NCBI GenBank assembly: GCA_026988035.1
Contig: JALSLY010000070.1
Span: 1-39,924 of the forward strand
Direction: 5' to 3'
Source of the DNA: Thermotogae bacterium
Lineage (GTDB): Bacteria; Thermotogota; Thermotogae; Mesoaciditogales; Mesoaciditogaceae
Length of the DNA stretch: 39,924 bases
Notes under the pieces: generated by a model
Told to the model about the DNA's origin: nothing
Seen by the model: the letters and a program-made list of their open reading frames with translations, nothing else
Database searches by the model: none
Part shown: one piece after another, positions 15,299-25,871 of the stretch
Position numbering within the stretch: position 1 is the first letter of the stretch
How the letters are laid out: each line of letters begins with the position of its first letter
Program-made: the position numbers and the translations under genes

Positions 15299-15778
15299 AT
15301 GCGAATTTATGAGAGACTAAGAAGTGAACTTAAGATGAGAAGTTTGAGAATCACCTCGCAAAGAGAGGCTGTGCTTTCCATATTCGTAGAAAACAATGGG
15401 AAACACCTCACTCCAGACGAGGTGTACGAGCGGTTAGCACACAGAAACTCACACATAAGTAAAGCAACTATTTACCGTTCTATAGAGCTACTTGAAGAAA
15501 TGGGGTTCTTATCCAAAATAAACTTCGGTGACGGACTGGAGCGGTACGAGCTCAAAAACGAACATGGCCATCAGCACCATCATGTGGTTTGCACCGAATG
15601 CGGACAAATATATGCGTTGGAAGAGGATCTTCTCGACGATATCGAGAAAATAGTTGAAAAACGCACTAATTTTACGATCACAGATCATCAATTAAATTTC
15701 TATGGCTTGTGTCCAAAATGTCGCGCTCGTCATGAAGAAGAATCCAAAGAATCACAAGTGCAAAAACTACAAAAGTGA
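15299..15778 (+). CDS. Fur-family metal/peroxide-responsive repressor
   Basis: This 159-residue protein has the Fur winged-helix domain (residues about 10-85, with TSQREAVLSIF, HLTPDEVYERL and ISKATIYRSIELLEEMGFL), then a dimerisation domain with HEHGHQHHHVVCTECGQIY and CPKCRARH. The two CxxC pairs would hold the structural zinc, and the His-rich segment the regulatory metal. Whether it senses iron, zinc or peroxide (Fur, Zur or PerR) cannot be decided. The ATG is preceded by GAGGTGAT. Its last 101 bp lie opposite the 3' end of comEC, so the zinc-binding tail of Fur is encoded antisense to the ComEC tail. Confidence 0.9.
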   Translation: MRIYERLRSELKMRSLRITSQREAVLSIFVENNGKHLTPDEVYERLAHRNSHISKATIYRSIELLEEMGFLSKINFGDGLERYELKNEHGHQHHHVVCTECGQIYALEEDLLDDIEKIVEKRTNFTITDHQLNFYGLCPKCRARHEEESKESQVQKLQK

Positions 15779-17063
15779 TCCAGAATGCTGTCACTTTTGG
15801 GTGAATTTTCACAACCGAAAGTGGCAGTTTATTTGTGAATCTTACCAACCAATCAAGTGAACCCGCAAAAGGTAAAACTCCTGTGCCAATAATTCTTTCC
15901 ATAGTCGTAATTCCCAGTAAGGCAAAAAACGAAAAGAGCATTGCACCTTCTAAAATAAATATCATAAGTACTGGAACTGCGATAGCGTTAAACAAAAAAG
16001 AAGCAATGTAAATTCGCCCAAAGTTTAAAATGAGAAAGGGAATCACCCCTATATTTGCCGCAAGCGTAAAATTCAAAGCCTCTGATACCCATTTTGGCTT
16101 GAAGACAGGAATTTTGGGGCCAAGCACTGCCATTGCGATAACAGCTGAGTAAGAAAGTTGAAACGACGCATCAAAAATTATCGAACCATCGTTTAGAACT
16201 TCAAAGAGTCCTACCATTCCAAGAAGGTTTAGAAAGTTCTGAGGCCTATCGATAATTTTAAAAAATGCAAAGAGTGTAAAAAGTGATATTGCACGAAACG
16301 TTGGAATTGAAAATCCCACGGTTGCTCCGTATATGGTGATTATTACAAAGACAGCAGGATACTTAACAATACTCCACGGGACAAGCTCAGAAAGGATTAA
16401 TAAAGTGATCATAGAAATTATGCCAACATGCATACCTGAAACGGAAAATATTTGGGCGTATCCACCATTCCGATACAGCCTTTTTAGATTGAACGAGACG
16501 TCTTTCCTTCCAAGAAACACAGATGCAACCGTATCCGCCTCTTTAAACATGTAGCGTTTCATTTGAAAGTACAAATAATCAGAAACTTTTACTCCCCATC
16601 TGATTAACTTGTCTAATAGAGAAAAAGACAGTTCCGTCCAAAAAACATCTACTGCTTCCACTTTTCCATCCTTTTTGTTAACTTTCGCCATGAACTCATC
16701 AGCGAGTTTTGGAGTAGTACGTACCCATCTTGGTAAAAAAACCGTAATTGCCCCTCCCTTTTTCCAACCAGAAGAAGTGTGAAACTGAACATTGGATACC
16801 CTAACAATGTTTGAATTTGATCGGCTTACTTTCCCGATCACAAATGATTCTCCATTAGGTAATGTTTGGGGAGCGATAATCCAAGAAAGTCCAACGAAGA
16901 AAAACGACAAGATCAAAATAGGATTCAAAGCCAGATTCGAAAAGAAGCAGATAATCGTTAAAATGCAAAAGCTCAAACCAATCCACCATGGAAAGAGCAA
17001 CGATAGAAATGAGCCTGCAACTGTAGCTAAAAAGAGGAAAAAAAGAGGAGACTTTGATGCCAT
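15678..17063 (-). CDS. comEC: ComEC/Rec2-type DNA-uptake channel protein without nuclease domain
   Basis: This 461-residue membrane protein has an N-terminal pair of helices, a soluble periplasmic OB-like segment (about 70-150), then the Competence domain with around eight helices. Its hallmark is NGGYAQIFSVSGMHVGII (near residue 205), the conserved ComEC SGxH motif. VGFSIPTFRAISL and FQLSYSAVIAMAVLGP also fit. Family members often carry a C-terminal metallo-beta-lactamase nuclease domain; this one ends shortly after the membrane region, so any strand degradation must be done by another protein. Its ATG shares a base with the stop of the HD-GYP gene upstream (TAATG), with GAGGAA as ribosome site. 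It overlaps fur tail-to-tail by 101 bp. A role in DNA uptake is the family expectation. Confidence 0.85.
   Translation of the reverse strand: MASKSPLFFLFLATVAGSFLSLLFPWWIGLSFCILTIICFFSNLALNPILILSFFFVGLSWIIAPQTLPNGESFVIGKVSRSNSNIVRVSNVQFHTSSGWKKGGAITVFLPRWVRTTPKLADEFMAKVNKKDGKVEAVDVFWTELSFSLLDKLIRWGVKVSDYLYFQMKRYMFKEADTVASVFLGRKDVSFNLKRLYRNGGYAQIFSVSGMHVGIISMITLLILSELVPWSIVKYPAVFVIITIYGATVGFSIPTFRAISLFTLFAFFKIIDRPQNFLNLLGMVGLFEVLNDGSIIFDASFQLSYSAVIAMAVLGPKIPVFKPKWVSEALNFTLAANIGVIPFLILNFGRIYIASFLFNAIAVPVLMIFILEGAMLFSFFALLGITTMERIIGTGVLPFAGSLDWLVRFTNKLPLSVVKIHPKVTAFWITFVVFALVILWILLHDERDILDTSHRNLIDDL
15770..15799 (+). terminator. Hairpin spanning the fur stop codon, inside comEC
   Basis: CAAAAGTGA (15770-15778) and TCACTTTTG (15791-15799) form a perfect 9-bp stem with a 12-nt loop. 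The left arm contains the fur stop codon. The whole element lies within the comEC coding sequence on the other strand. The following T-run is modest, so terminator function for fur is possible but not certain. Confidence 0.45.
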
Positions 17064-19078
17064 TATTTCCTCAGTTTTTTTGCGTATTCTCTAAGAGCGT
17101 CGACTGAAAATTCAACAATTTTGGGATCGTACTTTGATCCAATTTCTTTCAAAATTTCCTTTATCACATCCTCCGCATCCATTTTTTGAACGTTGATCAT
17201 CATGTCGAAATCATCTGCTATCAATATTATTCTTGAGAGAAGGGGGATCTCATCACCTCTGATTCCATCAGGATATCCATTCCCGTCAAAATGTTCGCGG
17301 TGGTGTAGTACCACCTTTTTAAACCTCTTAGGAAGATCGAAACTGGAAACTATATGTTCACTCAAAACGGGATACGTTTTAACTATCTCATACTCTTCAT
17401 TCGTTAATTTTCCGAATTTGAGTATTATCGCATCTGGAATCCCAACTTTTCCAGCATCGTGAAACAAAGCACTCCATCGCAGATCTTCAAGTTGATCTGT
17501 TGAAAGTTCCATTTGCTTTCCTATCATTATTGATATACCAGCGACCCTTTCTGAATGTCCACGAAGATAAGGATTTTTCATTTCCATAAGGTGGATCATC
17601 GTTCTTAAGAAACTTTTCCGATTCTCGACACTAAACTCATTAACCTGTTTCAGCGTGACAAAAGAAGAAGCCAATTTACCAAACGCCCTCATAAGATACT
17701 TTGATTCTTCAGAAAATTGCACGTCTTCTAACGCGTCGAGGAAAATATTTCCAACAAACTTGCCATTTGCCATAATTGGAACAGCTAAACTTCTGTATAT
17801 ATGACCAGCAGTCGCACTTTCTATCTTTTCAGCAATATCTTTAGGCAAAATCACAAAATCTTCGTTTACCAGCTCTTCGATAACTTCGAGTTTTTTTACC
17901 TTAAACATCCATTTTGCTTCTAAATCAAGACTTTTCAACTTTTCCTCATCGTGCCCGCGAACCGCAACAAATCTCCATTTTTCTCCCTTTACTAAAGACA
18001 CACTTCCAGCGGTTGCTTCAGGAACAAGGTTTATCGCTATATCGAGTAAATCATTGAAAAATTCTCTTTCATCAGATAGGGGTGAAAAACTGGATATAAG
18101 TTCCACCATCTTCATAAACTTTTCGTTCATTTTCAACAGGTGGAGGTTAACTTGAGAGAGGCTATCTGAAAGATTGCTCATCTTTTTTCTTATTTCTTCT
18201 TTCTCTTCAATTGTTTTCTCAAGTTCTCTGATCTTACGTTTAACCTTAAAATTCAAAGTTTGGTTCCACGCAAATAATGTAAGAAAGATCCCACCAACAA
18301 TTGCGATCACAAGTATTAGATATGGAAAAAGAGCTGTTAAATTATAAGATACATTTGCTCCCTTCCATTTTTTCATGATATTTTCTACAGTGAATTTGGG
18401 AACCTTTGAAAATCCATCGTTTATAATTTTGACAAGTGTCTTTCTCCCTTTTTTCACTGCACGATATAACTTTGAAGTGTAAAGCGGAGGAGAATACTTA
18501 AATTGTTTCATAAGGTTGTATTTTGCAAGGTAATAGATGGCTGGTTCTTTGTCTGCGATGAAAATATGCACGTCTCCCTCTTTTGCCGCTCTTACCAATG
18601 AATCGTAAGAATCATAGTAAACAAGAGTTGTTACGCCGTGCTGAGAAGCGTAGAGTGCATCGTAATCTCCTGATTTGACACCAACTTTAAAACCTTTCAA
18701 GGATTTCAAATTTGCGATTCCAGAGAGCCTTTTGTCAAAAAAGATCACTGTCTTGATTTCATCAAATGGTTTAGTGTAGTCGAGAAATTTAGCTCTTTCG
18801 TTAGAGTAAAAAATACCGTCAACGACATCGGCTTTTCCATTTACTACCATGGGAATGGCGTTCTTCCAATCGACCATCAAGAATTCAACTTTTATATTCG
18901 TAACTTTTTCCCATTCTCTCCAAAGATCGACGGATATACCGACTGCTTTTCCATTGCTATCGACAAAAGAATACGGGGGATAATTTTTATCCATAACAAT
19001 TTTTAACGTTTTGATGGTTGAACCAAACAAACTAAGTGTTAATAAAGCTATTACAAATAATGATAAAGTTTTTCTCAT
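17063..19078 (-). CDS. Ligand-sensing c-di-GMP phosphodiesterase: periplasmic binding domain, membrane helix, GAF, HD-GYP
   Basis: This 671-residue receptor has four parts. A signal peptide (about 1-20) leads into a family 3 amino-acid-type binding domain (about 21-235: IVMDKNYPPYSFVDSNGKAVG and DGIFYSNERAKFLDYTKPF). A membrane helix (about 248-270) is followed by a coiled-coil linker (about 275-325). A GAF-like domain spans about 330-480. An HD-GYP domain (about 490-671) has His508, HDAGKVGIPD (540-549), HHREHFDGNGYPDG (592-605) and IPLLSRII. HD-GYP enzymes hydrolyse cyclic di-GMP, so an extracellular small molecule probably changes its turnover. The segment after the GYP motif is diverged from the usual AD.FDALTS.RPYR. 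Translation is coupled to comEC by TAATG. The ribosome site is AAAGGGGG before ATG 19078. Its ligand is unknown. Confidence 0.88.
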   Translation of the reverse strand: MRKTLSLFVIALLTLSLFGSTIKTLKIVMDKNYPPYSFVDSNGKAVGISVDLWREWEKVTNIKVEFLMVDWKNAIPMVVNGKADVVDGIFYSNERAKFLDYTKPFDEIKTVIFFDKRLSGIANLKSLKGFKVGVKSGDYDALYASQHGVTTLVYYDSYDSLVRAAKEGDVHIFIADKEPAIYYLAKYNLMKQFKYSPPLYTSKLYRAVKKGRKTLVKIINDGFSKVPKFTVENIMKKWKGANVSYNLTALFPYLILVIAIVGGIFLTLFAWNQTLNFKVKRKIRELEKTIEEKEEIRKKMSNLSDSLSQVNLHLLKMNEKFMKMVELISSFSPLSDEREFFNDLLDIAINLVPEATAGSVSLVKGEKWRFVAVRGHDEEKLKSLDLEAKWMFKVKKLEVIEELVNEDFVILPKDIAEKIESATAGHIYRSLAVPIMANGKFVGNIFLDALEDVQFSEESKYLMRAFGKLASSFVTLKQVNEFSVENRKSFLRTMIHLMEMKNPYLRGHSERVAGISIMIGKQMELSTDQLEDLRWSALFHDAGKVGIPDAIILKFGKLTNEEYEIVKTYPVLSEHIVSSFDLPKRFKKVVLHHREHFDGNGYPDGIRGDEIPLLSRIILIADDFDMMINVQKMDAEDVIKEILKEIGSKYDPKIVEFSVDALREYAKKLRK

Positions 19079-19124
19079 GAAACCCCCTTTAGAGATGTTT
19101 TTCTAAACTACCATTATACATCAA

Positions 19125-19148
19125 AAGCGACCTCTCACGAGGCCGCTT
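19125..19148 (-). terminator. Intrinsic terminator after hppA
   Basis: AAGCG-A-CCTC, loop TCAC, GAGG-C-CGCTT forms a nine-pair stem with one mismatch. Read on the minus strand it is followed by TTTTGATGTAT. It sits a few bases beyond the hppA stop codon and upstream of the HD-GYP gene. Confidence 0.7.
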
Positions 19149-19152
19149 CAAA

Positions 19153-21312
19153 TCATTTCATAAAAAACGGTAATGATGGGAAAAGTGAACCAAAGAAAAG
19201 CGAAAGCACAGCCATCAATTTTATAAGTATATCCATAGAAGGTCCAACGGTGTCTTTCAGTGGATCGCCAACTGTGTCACCAACTATTGTTGCGTCGTGA
19301 AGAGGAGTACCTCGTCCTCCAAAATTACCCATCTCTACATATTTTTTCGCGTTGTCCAGTGCGCCACCTGAATTGGCAGTAAATATCGCGATCATTATGG
19401 CAGACAAAAGGCCCCCAAGCAAAACGCCAGCGAGTGCGCTCTTACCAAACAGATACCCAACTACAAATGGAGTGGCAATCGCAATCACACCTGGTAGAAG
19501 CATCTTCGAAATGGCTCCTGTAGCTGTAATGGATATGCAGCGCTTGTAATCAGGCATAACTTCACCTTTAAGTATACCTGGATTTTCTTTAAATTGCCTT
19601 CTTACTTCTTTAACCATGAGAAAAGCATTTTCACTCACACCATTTATAAGTAAGGCTGAGAAATAGAACGGCAACATTGCTCCCCATATAAGACCAATGA
19701 TAGAATACGGACTGATCATGTTTATCACTGGATTGAGGCTTAACTGTCCTGTGGTTTGAGCGCTTGACCATATAAATGAAACTATTAGGGACAATGCGGC
19801 AAATGCGGCGCTACCGATAGCAAATCCTTTTCCTATTGCAGCGGTCGTGTTACCAACAGCATCAAGACCATCTGTGATCTCACGAACCTTTGGATCAAGT
19901 TCGGCCATCTGTGCTATTCCACCAGCATTATCAGCTATTGGTCCATACGTGTCAACGCTAACAGTATATGCCACAAAGGATAGCATGCCAAGTGCCGCTA
20001 TCGCGATTCCGTACACCCCGGAAGACAGATAAGCTCCGAGAATGGCAAGAATCACCACAAGTACAGGCCAAAATGTTGATTTCATTCCGAGAGCCAGACC
20101 TCCTGTTATGTTTATCGCAACGCCGCTTTGTGATTGCTCAGCGAGATGTCTGACAGGTTTATAGTCGTATGATGTGTAATACTCACTGAATTTACTTATA
20201 GCAAGACCGGCTACGAGACCACAAAGAATTGAACCAAATGGTCTCCATATAAACGGAACTCCAGTAGCAATGACATATATTTCTTTGAAAGCATAATCCA
20301 CTTTGAATACATAAACAATTAGAAACGATATGATCAGCATTACCACACCGGTAAATAGATTTCCCGACGAGAGAGCTGCACGGGCGTTGGTGGTTCTTCT
20401 CATTTTTACAAATGCTATACCCAGCATGGCAGCTACAATTCCACCACCAGCAAGTGCAATCGGAAGATACAACAACTTGTAAAATTGAATAGAAGTCATA
20501 TCTTTGTCTGCGATGGCCATAAACATCACGAGAGCTATGGCAGATATTATCGATGCCACGTAAGATTCAAGGATATCCGCACCAAGACCGGCTACGTCTC
20601 CAACGTTGTCTCCAACGTTATCAGCGATCGTTGCAGGATTTCTGGGATCGTCTTCTGGTATGTGCTCTTCAACCTTTCCAACGAGATCGGCTGACATGTC
20701 AGCAGCTTTTGTGTATATTCCACCACCCACTCTGTCAAAAAGTGCAATTAGAGATGCACCAAAAGAGTAGGCACTAACAAGCATTACGCCATCTACAACA
20801 GATATTCCATGAATGTGAGGCATGCCACCTGTACGTATAGCTTCAACCGCAGAAAAAGAGAAGGATCCCTTAAAAAACATCATAACAGAGGTCAACCCAA
20901 CAATGGAAAATCCAGCAACTACAAGTCCCATTACACTTCCGCCAGAAAAAGCAGTAGAAAATGCCTCAAAGAGTCCTTTTTTTGCAGATTCGGTTACTCT
21001 CACATTCGTATGAGTGGATATGTACATTCCTGTAATCCCAGCCATTTCGGAAACAAACGCCCCTATCAACATCACAACTCCATATCTTATCCTGAAAACA
21101 AACGATATGAATACGGCAATTATAATAGCTATAAGCGCTATGTGTTTCGCCTCTTCTTTTAGAAAAGCAGAAGAACCATCTTGAATAGCACGAGCCATAT
21201 TTTTCATTTTTTCATTTCCCTCGGGGCGAGACAACGCATTACGCGCCATAAAATACGCCATTATCGCTGCTGCTATACCCGCTGCAAATGCAAAATAAAG
21301 CGCACTTTCCAT
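19153..21312 (-). CDS. hppA: Membrane-bound, K+-dependent ion-translocating pyrophosphatase
   Basis: This 719-residue protein with about 16 helices splits pyrophosphate to drive export of Na+ and/or H+. The catalytic motifs are DRVGGGIYTKAADMSADLVGK, EDDPRNPATIADNVGDNVGD and GDTVGDPLKDTVGPSMDIL. GNTTAAIGKGFAIGSAA carries Ala where K+-independent enzymes have Lys, so it should need K+. In the ion-gate helix GLGADILESYVASI, the Glu sits as in the Na+-pumping Thermotoga maritima enzyme rather than in plant H+ pumps. Na+ transport is therefore the better guess. The ATG follows GGAGGGAG. It lies 90 bp after the molybdenum hydroxylase operon on the same strand and ends with its own terminator. No clear promoter was seen in the 90-bp gap. 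Confidence 0.95.
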   Translation of the reverse strand: MESALYFAFAAGIAAAIMAYFMARNALSRPEGNEKMKNMARAIQDGSSAFLKEEAKHIALIAIIIAVFISFVFRIRYGVVMLIGAFVSEMAGITGMYISTHTNVRVTESAKKGLFEAFSTAFSGGSVMGLVVAGFSIVGLTSVMMFFKGSFSFSAVEAIRTGGMPHIHGISVVDGVMLVSAYSFGASLIALFDRVGGGIYTKAADMSADLVGKVEEHIPEDDPRNPATIADNVGDNVGDVAGLGADILESYVASIISAIALVMFMAIADKDMTSIQFYKLLYLPIALAGGGIVAAMLGIAFVKMRRTTNARAALSSGNLFTGVVMLIISFLIVYVFKVDYAFKEIYVIATGVPFIWRPFGSILCGLVAGLAISKFSEYYTSYDYKPVRHLAEQSQSGVAINITGGLALGMKSTFWPVLVVILAILGAYLSSGVYGIAIAALGMLSFVAYTVSVDTYGPIADNAGGIAQMAELDPKVREITDGLDAVGNTTAAIGKGFAIGSAAFAALSLIVSFIWSSAQTTGQLSLNPVINMISPYSIIGLIWGAMLPFYFSALLINGVSENAFLMVKEVRRQFKENPGILKGEVMPDYKRCISITATGAISKMLLPGVIAIATPFVVGYLFGKSALAGVLLGGLLSAIMIAIFTANSGGALDNAKKYVEMGNFGGRGTPLHDATIVGDTVGDPLKDTVGPSMDILIKLMAVLSLFFGSLFPSLPFFMK

Positions 21313-23745: not shown

Positions 23746-24242
23746 GACAATTCACCTTGATTTCCGGCAGGTACAGAAGCGCTGTTCCTGCGGAGTTCCG
23801 CTGCTTTCATTATTGCATGATTTTGGCTCACATAGCCTGTACATCTACAAAGATTGCCATTAAGATATGTTTTTATTTCTTCTTCGGTTGGATTGGGATT
23901 TTCATTTAGAAGTGCTTCAGCAGTCACAACGAGGGCTGGAATGCAAAAGCCACACTGTACAGCTCCTTCCTCAACAAGTGCTTTCTGTACCGCTGAAAGC
24001 TCGCCCTCTTTTGAAAAAGCTTCAACAGTCTTAATCTCGTGGCCGTCAACAGCAGCTGTAAAAGTTCTACACGACAACACAGGATTCCCGTCAAGCTGCA
24101 CGGAACATGCCCCACAGCTTGCCGTATCACATGCATGTTTGACACTCTTGTATCCAAGACGCCTTAAAGTTTCAACAAGTAGTTCTCCTGGCTCTATTTC
24201 GATCGAATGTTTTCTATCATTAACCTTGAATTCCACTTTCAT
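23742..24242 (-). CDS. xdhC: Molybdenum hydroxylase 2Fe-2S subunit
   Basis: This 166-residue electron-transfer subunit contains two [2Fe-2S] clusters. The plant-ferredoxin-type N-terminal domain has Cys38, Cys43, Cys46 and Cys58 (HACDTASCGACSV and LSC). The C-terminal helical domain has Cys97, Cys100, Cys132 and Cys134 (QCGFC and CRCTGY). Electrons pass from the Mo subunit through these clusters to a flavin subunit. Length is usual for the small subunit. It overlaps the second FAD subunit by 23 bp upstream and the Mo subunit by 4 bp downstream, with GAGGAGG before its ATG, so the subunits should be made in step. A short tail of about 20 residues past the CRCTGY helix is unremarkable. Confidence 0.92.
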   Translation of the reverse strand: MKVEFKVNDRKHSIEIEPGELLVETLRRLGYKSVKHACDTASCGACSVQLDGNPVLSCRTFTAAVDGHEIKTVEAFSKEGELSAVQKALVEEGAVQCGFCIPALVVTAEALLNENPNPTEEEIKTYLNGNLCRCTGYVSQNHAIMKAAELRRNSASVPAGNQGELS

Positions 24243-25044
24243 AGCAAATCCTCCTCATTGCTTTTTTAAGAAGGGCCCCAGCTAATGCTTTTCTATATTC
24301 AGCACTTGCTCTCATATCCGTTCCTACTTTTACAACACTCTCCATTAAATTGGCAGCTTTATCTATGGAATTTAAAAGATCCTTTCCCTTCAAAAAATCT
24401 TCAACTTCCCTTACTCTCTCAGATATCATGGGTCTTGATCCAACCACAATGGTTATCTCTTTAATCAGCTCATTCTCAAGTGACAAAGCAATCCCAAGGT
24501 TAAGCGTCGCTATATCAAATGTCGATTTGGCAAACTTTTCAAAAGCCATGAACTTAGTATTCTTTGGCAAATAAACTGCTGTTATGATTTGATCGCGTTT
24601 CCCATCTTTTATAAAGTTCTCTAACGTCGTTTTATGAAAATTCCCATCGTAGAATTCCACTTGTGACTCTGTCACCATAAAAATTGTTATAACATCCGAC
24701 CAACCAAGCTTGAAAGCTATTGAACCGCCAATTGTTGCCATATTCCTGATTTGCGTACTTCCAATATCTTTAGCCACTTCTTTGAAAAAGCCGTTATTCT
24801 GAGATGATAGTATCGGATTATTCATAAAAGTTGTTAGTTTTGCGTTCGCTCCAATTTTCACAATACTTCCATCCTCAATTTCGTCCATTCCAAGAGTTTT
24901 GAGATCTACAAGACGCTCAAGCCGTGATATTTTAAGTTGAGCAGCTATCAAACCACCACTTACATAAAGCGAATTAGGAAGACTACCCATTTCATAAGCT
25001 TCCTCGATCGTTTCCGGCCTCAAGTACTCCTTTATTTTTAACAT
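24220..25044 (-). CDS. Second FAD-type subunit of the molybdenum hydroxylase, flavin site apparently eroded
   Basis: This 274-residue protein has the CoxM/XdhB fold layout and the C-terminal CO-dehydrogenase flavoprotein domain (TDMRASAEYRKALAGALL). Compared with its neighbour encoded at 25038-25871, the two flavin motifs are altered. The first reads YVSGGLIAAQLKIS (27-40) instead of TGGTDLLVKVR. The second reads NMATIGGSIAFKLGWSD (101-117) instead of NxGTxxGNxxNASPAGD. Loss of the Thr-Asp pair and of the Asn and Ser-Pro suggests weak or altered FAD binding. Both flavin-type genes sit in the same overlapping operon, so it may be a structural partner, or use another flavin, or a different electron acceptor. 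Start ATG 25044 has GAGGAGGG upstream. The paralogy is clear; the functional reading is inference. Confidence 0.78.
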   Translation of the reverse strand: MLKIKEYLRPETIEEAYEMGSLPNSLYVSGGLIAAQLKISRLERLVDLKTLGMDEIEDGSIVKIGANAKLTTFMNNPILSSQNNGFFKEVAKDIGSTQIRNMATIGGSIAFKLGWSDVITIFMVTESQVEFYDGNFHKTTLENFIKDGKRDQIITAVYLPKNTKFMAFEKFAKSTFDIATLNLGIALSLENELIKEITIVVGSRPMISERVREVEDFLKGKDLLNSIDKAANLMESVVKVGTDMRASAEYRKALAGALLKKAMRRICYESGIQG

Positions 25045-25871
25045 TTTGTTCCCTCCTCGATCATTCGATACACAAGATTAGCACAGAGTATTTTACGATA
25101 CTTAGCACTACCCCTAACATCATCTATAGGATGAACGCGTTCCTCCACCATTTTGGATATTGAATGTGTAAAATCCTCATCGATATGCTTCCCTTTCGCA
25201 AACTCTTCAACATCTCTAAGCCTCAAAACGGTCGGAGCAACAGAACCGTACGCAATTCTGAATTCGTCAATTATCCTGTTCTTGCAACGAATCAACCATC
25301 CAACACTGGCAATCGATATTGTCATGGAATTGCGTTGTCCTACTTTCTCGAAGTAATGGACACTCCAATCGTATTTAGGAATGTGAATTGCTCTTACATA
25401 CTCTCCGCTTGGTAAAGCAGTTTGCCCAGGTCCAGTCACAAACTCTTCAACTGGGACAACACTGCCGTCAGAAATTTCTATTTTGGCATTCAAAAGATAA
25501 AGGGCAAGAAGTCCGTCACCAGCTGGCGACGCATTGACAACATTTCCAACTAAAGTACCACGATTTCGTATTTGAGGAGATCCTACAGTGTAAATTGCAT
25601 CATAAAGAAGCGGAAAATTTTTTATTAACGGCTTGAAATCCATCAACTCCGAATAAGTAATTGTTGCGCCGATAACAATTTCATCAATTTTATCTTTTAA
25701 AAAGTGAAGTGTTGGTATTCTTATGGTACTGACCACTCTCTTCGGTTTGATTTTTCCAATTCTCACTTTAACCAAAAGATCAGTTCCACCTGTCATTAAA
25801 AAAGAGCCTGGTTCGGAAAGTTGTGTTTTTAATTCCTCTTCAGTGTTGGGAATCATAAAGACAAAATCCAC
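25038..25871 (-). CDS. xdhB: Molybdenum hydroxylase FAD subunit
   Basis: This 277-residue subunit binds FAD and passes electrons from the 2Fe-2S subunit to NAD+, ferredoxin or another acceptor. Both FAD signatures are intact: MTGGTDLLVKVRIG (26-39) and IRNRGTLVGNVVNASPAGD (101-119). The C-terminal domain has the usual VRGSAKYRKILCANLVYRM. Translation starts with GTG at 25869-25871 behind GGAGGGGG; an in-frame ATG five codons on has no ribosome site. It is the first gene of the four-gene hydroxylase operon and overlaps the second FAD-type gene by 7 bp. The probable promoter lies at 25947-25974. Confidence 0.9.
   Translation of the reverse strand: MDFVFMIPNTEEELKTQLSEPGSFLMTGGTDLLVKVRIGKIKPKRVVSTIRIPTLHFLKDKIDEIVIGATITYSELMDFKPLIKNFPLLYDAIYTVGSPQIRNRGTLVGNVVNASPAGDGLLALYLLNAKIEISDGSVVPVEEFVTGPGQTALPSGEYVRAIHIPKYDWSVHYFEKVGQRNSMTISIASVGWLIRCKNRIIDEFRIAYGSVAPTVLRLRDVEEFAKGKHIDEDFTHSISKMVEERVHPIDDVRGSAKYRKILCANLVYRMIEEGTKC

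Follow-up and report, generated by a model that had tools for sequence, protein, structure and literature searches.

A degenerate HD-GYP receptor gene joined to comEC in one family of Thermotogota

Introduction

Does a receptor gene that shares a base with the start codon of comEC connect an environmental signal to DNA uptake? The question is raised by a stretch of 39,924 nucleotides (assembly GCA_026988035.1, contig JALSLY010000070.1, Thermotogae bacterium; hereafter the window), in which the gene for a membrane receptor ending in an HD-GYP domain lies directly upstream of comEC, the gene for the DNA uptake channel. A preliminary description, made from the letters alone, linked an external small-molecule signal and breakdown of cyclic di-GMP (c-di-GMP) to the channel in one operon. 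Comparison across the phylum shows that the gene pair is constant in the family of the window organism and that the HD-GYP domain has lost residues essential in an active homologue; hydrolysis of c-di-GMP by this domain is very improbable. The receptor is classified here, on its residues, as a predicted degenerate HD-GYP receptor rather than a phosphodiesterase.

The receptor, ComEC, and their junction

The two genes and the receptor domains are arranged as follows.

17063..19078, minus strand: receptor gene, 671 amino acids (aa), with signal/transmembrane segment, SBP_bac_3, transmembrane segment, coiled coil, GAF, and HD-GYP
18359..19006, minus strand: SBP_bac_3, periplasmic amino-acid-type binding domain, aa 25-240 (Pfam PF00497, 3e-27)
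Receptor aa ~250-272: transmembrane segment after SBP_bac_3
17663..18100, minus strand: GAF-like domain, aa ~327-472 (weak Pfam match, alignment to PmGH over 327-657, AlphaFold/Foldseek)
17099..17611, minus strand: degenerate HD-GYP domain, aa ~490-660 (GYP and HD kept; R314/K317 substrate loop gone)
17061..17065, minus strand: TAATG stop/start junction, 1-base overlap, GAGG upstream
15678..17063, minus strand: comEC, 461 aa, Competence domain PF03772 (aa 186-443) alone

The receptor architecture of periplasmic binding domain, GAF, and HD-GYP, as first described, is borne out by Pfam, alignment, and an AlphaFold model. The HD-GYP domain matches Pfam HD_5 (PF13487) over aa 493-654 at 4e-34, and GAF_2 matches aa 336-472 weakly, under the cut-off. 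The model of residues 250-671 has a mean predicted local distance difference test (pLDDT) score of 85. The GAF assignment appears correct despite the sub-cut-off score, because the best PDB match of the model found by Foldseek is the GAF/HD-GYP protein PmGH (4mcw) and the middle part also matches several stand-alone GAF structures.

In family 3 solute-binding proteins, an Arg holds the ligand carboxylate and an Asp holds the ligand amine. An Arg (..NERAK..) and an Asp (..IADKE..) of the receptor binding domain align with those of amino-acid-binding proteins, e.g., AncQR, and both are kept in all five receptor orthologues that carry the domain. An amino-acid-like ligand is plausible because these two residues are retained. 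The external signal proposed earlier is nevertheless no constant part of the pair: in four genomes of one genus (G008-G011, genus g2) the receptor is 424-425 aa long and has no binding domain, so that the invariant core consists of transmembrane segment, coiled coil, GAF, and HD-GYP.

The base-sharing junction was found as described, with the sequence ...GAGGAAATAATGGCA, in which the TAA stop and the ATG start have one A in common and a GAGG Shine-Dalgarno-like stretch precedes the comEC start. Such spacing is frequent in the window, where 10 of 21 same-strand neighbour pairs, receptor-comEC among them, abut or overlap. Pfam detected no DUF4131 in the window ComEC and no Lactamase_B, the nuclease domain, in agreement with the earlier reading. 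The full-length ComEC proteins of the phylum (n = 94) measure 392-514 aa, too short for a Lactamase_B domain, and the absence of a nuclease is a trait of the whole phylum. A profile with the Competence domain only has been reported as common and is thought to be ancestral (PMC6299819).

Active site of the linked HD-GYP domains

Residues were read against PmGH of Persephonella marina, whose metal ligands are E185, H189, H221, D222, H250, H276, H277, and D305, with K225 and D183 also essential (PMC4159591). Alanine replacement of every ligand except E185 or D305 abolished PmGH activity, as did K225A, and D305A strongly reduced it (PMC4159591). R314 and K317 of the R-x-Y-R/K motif contact guanine, and the R314A and K317A mutants are still active. 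Seven ligands are shared by both HD-GYP subfamilies (H189, H221, D222, H250, H276, H277, and D305), and two of them are replaced in the window protein at these codons.

17372..17374, minus strand: Y569 codon, site of PmGH metal ligand H250
17297..17299, minus strand: R594 codon, site of PmGH metal ligand H277

The family of the window genome (G000) is designated f1 and comprises ten genomes, nine of them comEC-bearing, in four genera: g1 (G000 and G015), g2 (G008-G011), and g3/g4 (G012, G013, and G016). H250Y and H277R occur together in g1, in both of the genomes whose gene is complete. The HDxGK lysine, K225, is kept in these two, whereas the remaining seven linked proteins have lost it: all of g2 have L at this site, and G012, G013, and G016 have F or Y there together with N at D305. 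D183 is kept in two of the nine. Thus, no comEC-linked orthologue has the complete set of residues that PmGH needs for activity (missing are H250 and H277, or K225; in some also D305). The window domain has the HD_5 match, the GYP motif, and K225 but not the full set of seven ligands that marks an active phosphodiesterase.

Since a background of other Thermotogota domains drawn from the best-scoring loci alone was skewed to canonical domains, weak matches were added to it. The seven shared ligands are intact in all 82 other complete Thermotogota HD-GYP domains, and the nine background domains without K225 all belong to a single further paralogous family (L289-L299). The motif R-x-[YF]-[RK] occurs in 139 of 161 domains of the background and in none of the nine linked proteins. 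Its loss would bear more on binding mode than on catalysis, because R314A and K317A left PmGH active, and it argues against a canonical mode of c-di-GMP binding. Together, the residues make c-di-GMP phosphodiesterase activity very improbable, and the c-di-GMP breakdown in the preliminary description does not fit an active site that is broken here (H250 to Y, H277 to R) and in every linked orthologue.

Several other readings of the substitutions were set aside. Sequencing error was ruled out for H250Y and H277R, as both also occur in G015, and alignment ambiguity at HHREHFDG was ruled out by a gapless alignment to HHHERYDG. E185Y in the window protein was not counted as a loss, Y or F at this position defining a large normal subfamily. 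K225L was rejected as a feature unique to the linked genes.

Two further HD-GYP-like families were encountered. One, of ~367 aa and from the same genomes (L289, L291-L297, and L299; e.g., G000:C46:32270-32725), reads HDxGL/Y in place of HDxGK; the GYP tyrosine is replaced by I or V, and the R-x-Y-R motif is missing. To judge from these residues, it is a probable further non-phosphodiesterase. The other, of ~300 aa (L298 and L300-L306; e.g., G000:C76:15701-16168), has the tail DFYDEALNTVSSEI and no R-x-Y-R motif, yet keeps all metal ligands.

Conservation of the pair and the neighbours of comEC

ComEC was found in 98 of 103 Thermotogota genomes and HD-GYP relatives in all 103. The surroundings of comEC were compared in 97 genomes, the window included, by scoring the same-strand upstream gene. 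In f1 the receptor gene lies upstream of comEC in 9/9 comEC-bearing genomes, at a spacing of -4, -1, or +2 bases, and ComEC identity across the four genera is ~50%; the pairing exceeds chance. Outside f1, an HD-GYP gene upstream of comEC was found at none of the loci compared. The usual occupant of this position is apgM (2,3-bisphosphoglycerate-independent phosphoglycerate mutase, PF10143), which precedes comEC at 58 of the 97 loci, 31 of these 58 with an ATG overlapping the stop codon by 1 or 4 bases; the other 30 loci have assorted genes or contig ends. All ten f1 genomes retain apgM at another site. Conservation across Thermotogota, put forward as a check on the pair, therefore holds within f1 and not outside it, where apgM mostly takes the place of the receptor. 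Free variation of neighbours among relatives had been named as a sign that the link is accidental; neighbours do vary between families, but within f1 the pairing is constant.

In one or more genomes of genus g13 in family f6 (G022; L083 9598-10830), a gene for an rve-type integrase occupies the place of apgM directly upstream of comEC, and apgM is missing upstream of comEC at all nine g13 loci.

Nothing in the tight junction is peculiar to the receptor: comEC is as a rule closely joined to the gene before it, whichever that is, and outside f1 apgM overlaps it in the same way. The conserved f1 block runs from molybdopterin dehydrogenase genes, sometimes hppA, the HD-GYP gene, and comEC to a convergent fur, sometimes murJ, and an aminotransferase gene, and it includes unrelated genes beside the receptor-comEC pair. 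In g2, the junction of the receptor gene with comEC, overlapping or abutting, is matched at its other end by an overlap with the molybdopterin dehydrogenase gene upstream. For these two reasons, adjacency and overlap are weak evidence for shared function, and stop/start overlaps with comEC should not be read as signalling links.

A search of genome contigs with the receptor alignment returned generic HD-GYP proteins and one member of the f1 family (L189, metagenome bacterium), and the same search with ComEC gave no match. Among the papers searched, none described an operon of HD-GYP and ComEC, the sole text containing all terms being a genome announcement.

Evolution and selection

The nine comEC-linked HD-GYP proteins form one clade (support, 100/99), within which g2 branches from (g1,(g4,g3)). 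Ratios of nonsynonymous to synonymous substitution (dN/dS; rough Nei-Gojobori estimates) between G000 and G015 were 0.13 for the receptor, 0.15 for its HD-GYP domain, and 0.17 for comEC, and those for the HD-GYP domain in two g2 pairs were 0.05-0.09. The receptor gene is therefore maintained; it is under purifying selection and is not decaying. The residues lost differ within the clade, which suggests at least two, and probably three, routes to the loss of catalysis in a lineage that never left comEC. The receptor probably has some role for which canonical hydrolysis is not needed. An HD-GYP lineage that appears to have lost catalysis through residues that differ among genera, yet is kept under selection, is of interest in itself.

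Possible roles of the pairing

The window organism could plausibly carry out c-di-GMP signalling as well as DNA uptake. Several canonical HD-GYP proteins are encoded in f1 genomes, and DprA, PilB/PilT-like ATPases, and a double-HHH ComEA-like protein are found in all ten, with a secretin in nine. Within the phylum, Thermotoga RQ7 is naturally transformable (PMC5637354).

On balance, the locus is best explained as a pseudo-enzyme receptor brought beside comEC by a lineage-specific rearrangement, with a generic expression benefit only, although this account is favoured with some reserve. The receptor would be a dimeric, membrane-anchored protein in which a periplasmic amino-acid-type binding domain is followed by a transmembrane segment, a coiled coil, a GAF domain, and a pseudo-enzyme HD-GYP domain. 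The last, very probably unable to hydrolyse c-di-GMP, may serve as a ligand-driven conformational module like that of the hydrolysis-dead receptor DvhD. In the f1 ancestor, comEC, together with the convergent fur, would have parted from its usual partner apgM and come to sit behind the receptor gene. Co-translation would then fix a modest, coordinated expression of both membrane proteins, as for apgM-comEC elsewhere.

Some observations weigh against this account. Nothing is inserted between receptor and comEC in any of the nine genomes, while hppA and murJ come and go, and uninterrupted adjacency would also fit a functional link. GGDEF proteins number 3-12 per f1 genome, so c-di-GMP signalling exists. 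The GYP motif, I294, H189, H221, D222, H276, and D308 are kept in all nine linked proteins, so that some residual or altered activity may persist. K225L alone, the state seen in g2, is also found in another paralogous family of the same genomes.

It is possible, though doubtful, that the pseudo-enzyme receptor controls DNA uptake directly, either because binding of a ligand or nucleotide alters its shape and thereby gates ComEC or places it within the inner membrane, or because ComEC assembly needs the receptor; this would account for their co-translation. It would fit the unbroken adjacency across four genera at ~50% ComEC identity, the retention of the transmembrane-GAF-HD-GYP core even without the binding domain, the purifying selection, and the uptake genes listed above. 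Outside f1, however, comEC manages without a receptor and has a junction with apgM that is just as close. In f1 the block also preserves fur and further neighbours of unrelated function, and the similar overlap of the g2 receptor with the dehydrogenase gene means that overlap is no proof of shared function. A dedicated partner, evolved from an HD-GYP phosphodiesterase, that gates or assembles the channel and leaves c-di-GMP levels unchanged, responding to an amino-acid-like periplasmic ligand in some genera or acting through GAF/HD-GYP alone, is unlikely. If the receptor does act on ComEC, the environment would control the DNA channel directly, rather than pili or expression.

Explanations that keep an enzyme fare worse. 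An altered enzyme with a reduced metal site (H189, H221, D222, and H276), acting on another substrate or with fewer metals, could account for the conservation of HD, H189, H276, D308, and GYP in 9/9 proteins and for the low dN/dS, the substitutions then reflecting a new specificity. It is quite improbable, as the losses differ among genera, a pattern more in keeping with relaxed catalysis than with a single new specificity, and PmGH mutants in single ligands are mostly dead. Highly improbable, too, is an active phosphodiesterase that lowers c-di-GMP locally and thereby switches competence: two metal ligands are lost here, other essential residues in the relatives, and the substrate loop in all, despite the retention of the overall HD-GYP fold and the GYP motif, the presence of GGDEF proteins, and the published influence of c-di-GMP in Vibrio and Thermus, where it acts on regulators of competence or on pili. 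Of the preliminary description, the receptor architecture, the junction, conservation within f1, and the nuclease-less ComEC are supported; c-di-GMP breakdown, a constant external signal, and phylum-wide conservation are not.

Other features of the locus

The genes and spacer flanking the pair are the following.

15299..15778, plus strand: fur-family regulator, convergent, its 3' end overlapping comEC by 101 bases (15678-15778)
19079..19152, minus strand: hppA-receptor gap of 74 bases, with a 9-10 bp hairpin, then TTTT, and TATAAT
19153..21312, minus strand: hppA, for a membrane pyrophosphatase, found next to the receptor gene on its upstream side in g1 and G012; the partner is not constant

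A convergent fur at the 3' end of comEC recurs in most Thermotogota families, with overlaps of ~50-116 bases and short gaps in some genera. Neither the TATAAT hexamer nor the hairpin sequence of the hppA-receptor gap is conserved in G015, and a promoter/terminator in this gap was dropped as proof of a separate transcript, the TATAAT not being conserved. In G016, a 118-aa open reading frame before the receptor gene (L064 6867-7223) matches part of HppA and is possibly a decayed or frameshifted hppA. Further upstream in the window (24220-25871), two adjoining FAD_binding_5/CO_deh_flav_C genes in the molybdopterin dehydrogenase operon represent a duplicated FAD subunit.

Comparison with known systems

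ComEC of the window resembles the Competence-only proteins of the CDCP 'C' profile (PMC6299819) in having a single PF03772 domain without DUF4131 or Lactamase_B, and nothing notable sets it apart from them except its partner gene, HD-GYP instead of apgM. The receptor resembles SBP_bac_3 one-component receptors, e.g., EvgS-type sensor kinases and the Thermotogota paralogues that combine a solute-binding protein (SBP) domain with HD-GYP, in its order of binding domain, transmembrane segment, and cytoplasmic output. The output here is a degenerate HD-GYP domain, whereas no catalytic residue is lost in the SBP-HD-GYP paralogues (e.g., G000:C41, L162).

PmGH (4mcw/4mdz/4me4; PMC4159591) shares GAF, a long helix, and HD-GYP with the receptor and is its best sequence match across GAF and HD-GYP as well as its best fold match. 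The active enzyme PmGH uses eight metal ligands, whereas in the receptor H250 and H277 are replaced and the R314/K317 loop is missing; the receptor also has SBP and transmembrane segments ahead of GAF-HD-GYP, which PmGH does not.

DvhD of Desulfovibrio vulgaris (9RBZ/9RC0; PMC13090378) is the nearest functional analogue, with a periplasmic sensor, a transmembrane segment, a cytoplasmic sensor, and a catalytically dead HD-GYP domain. The receptor has the same succession of sensor, transmembrane segment, cytoplasmic sensor, and ligand-poor HD-GYP, although the SBP domain is absent in g2. DvhD carries dCache and PAS where the receptor carries SBP and GAF, it has lost a different set of ligands (HD is SQ), and it acts on an adhesin protease system rather than ComEC. 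DvhD binds c-di-GMP and changes its dimer (PMC13090378), partly via R650 and Y652, which are probably equivalent to the motif missing here, a position inferred rather than aligned. Because these Arg/Tyr contacts appear to fall within the stretch shortened in the receptor, the likeness would hold at most in outline. Even so, the f1 proteins add a degenerate HD-GYP lineage to DvhD, whose structure is known and in which a dead HD-GYP domain goes with a periplasmic sensor.

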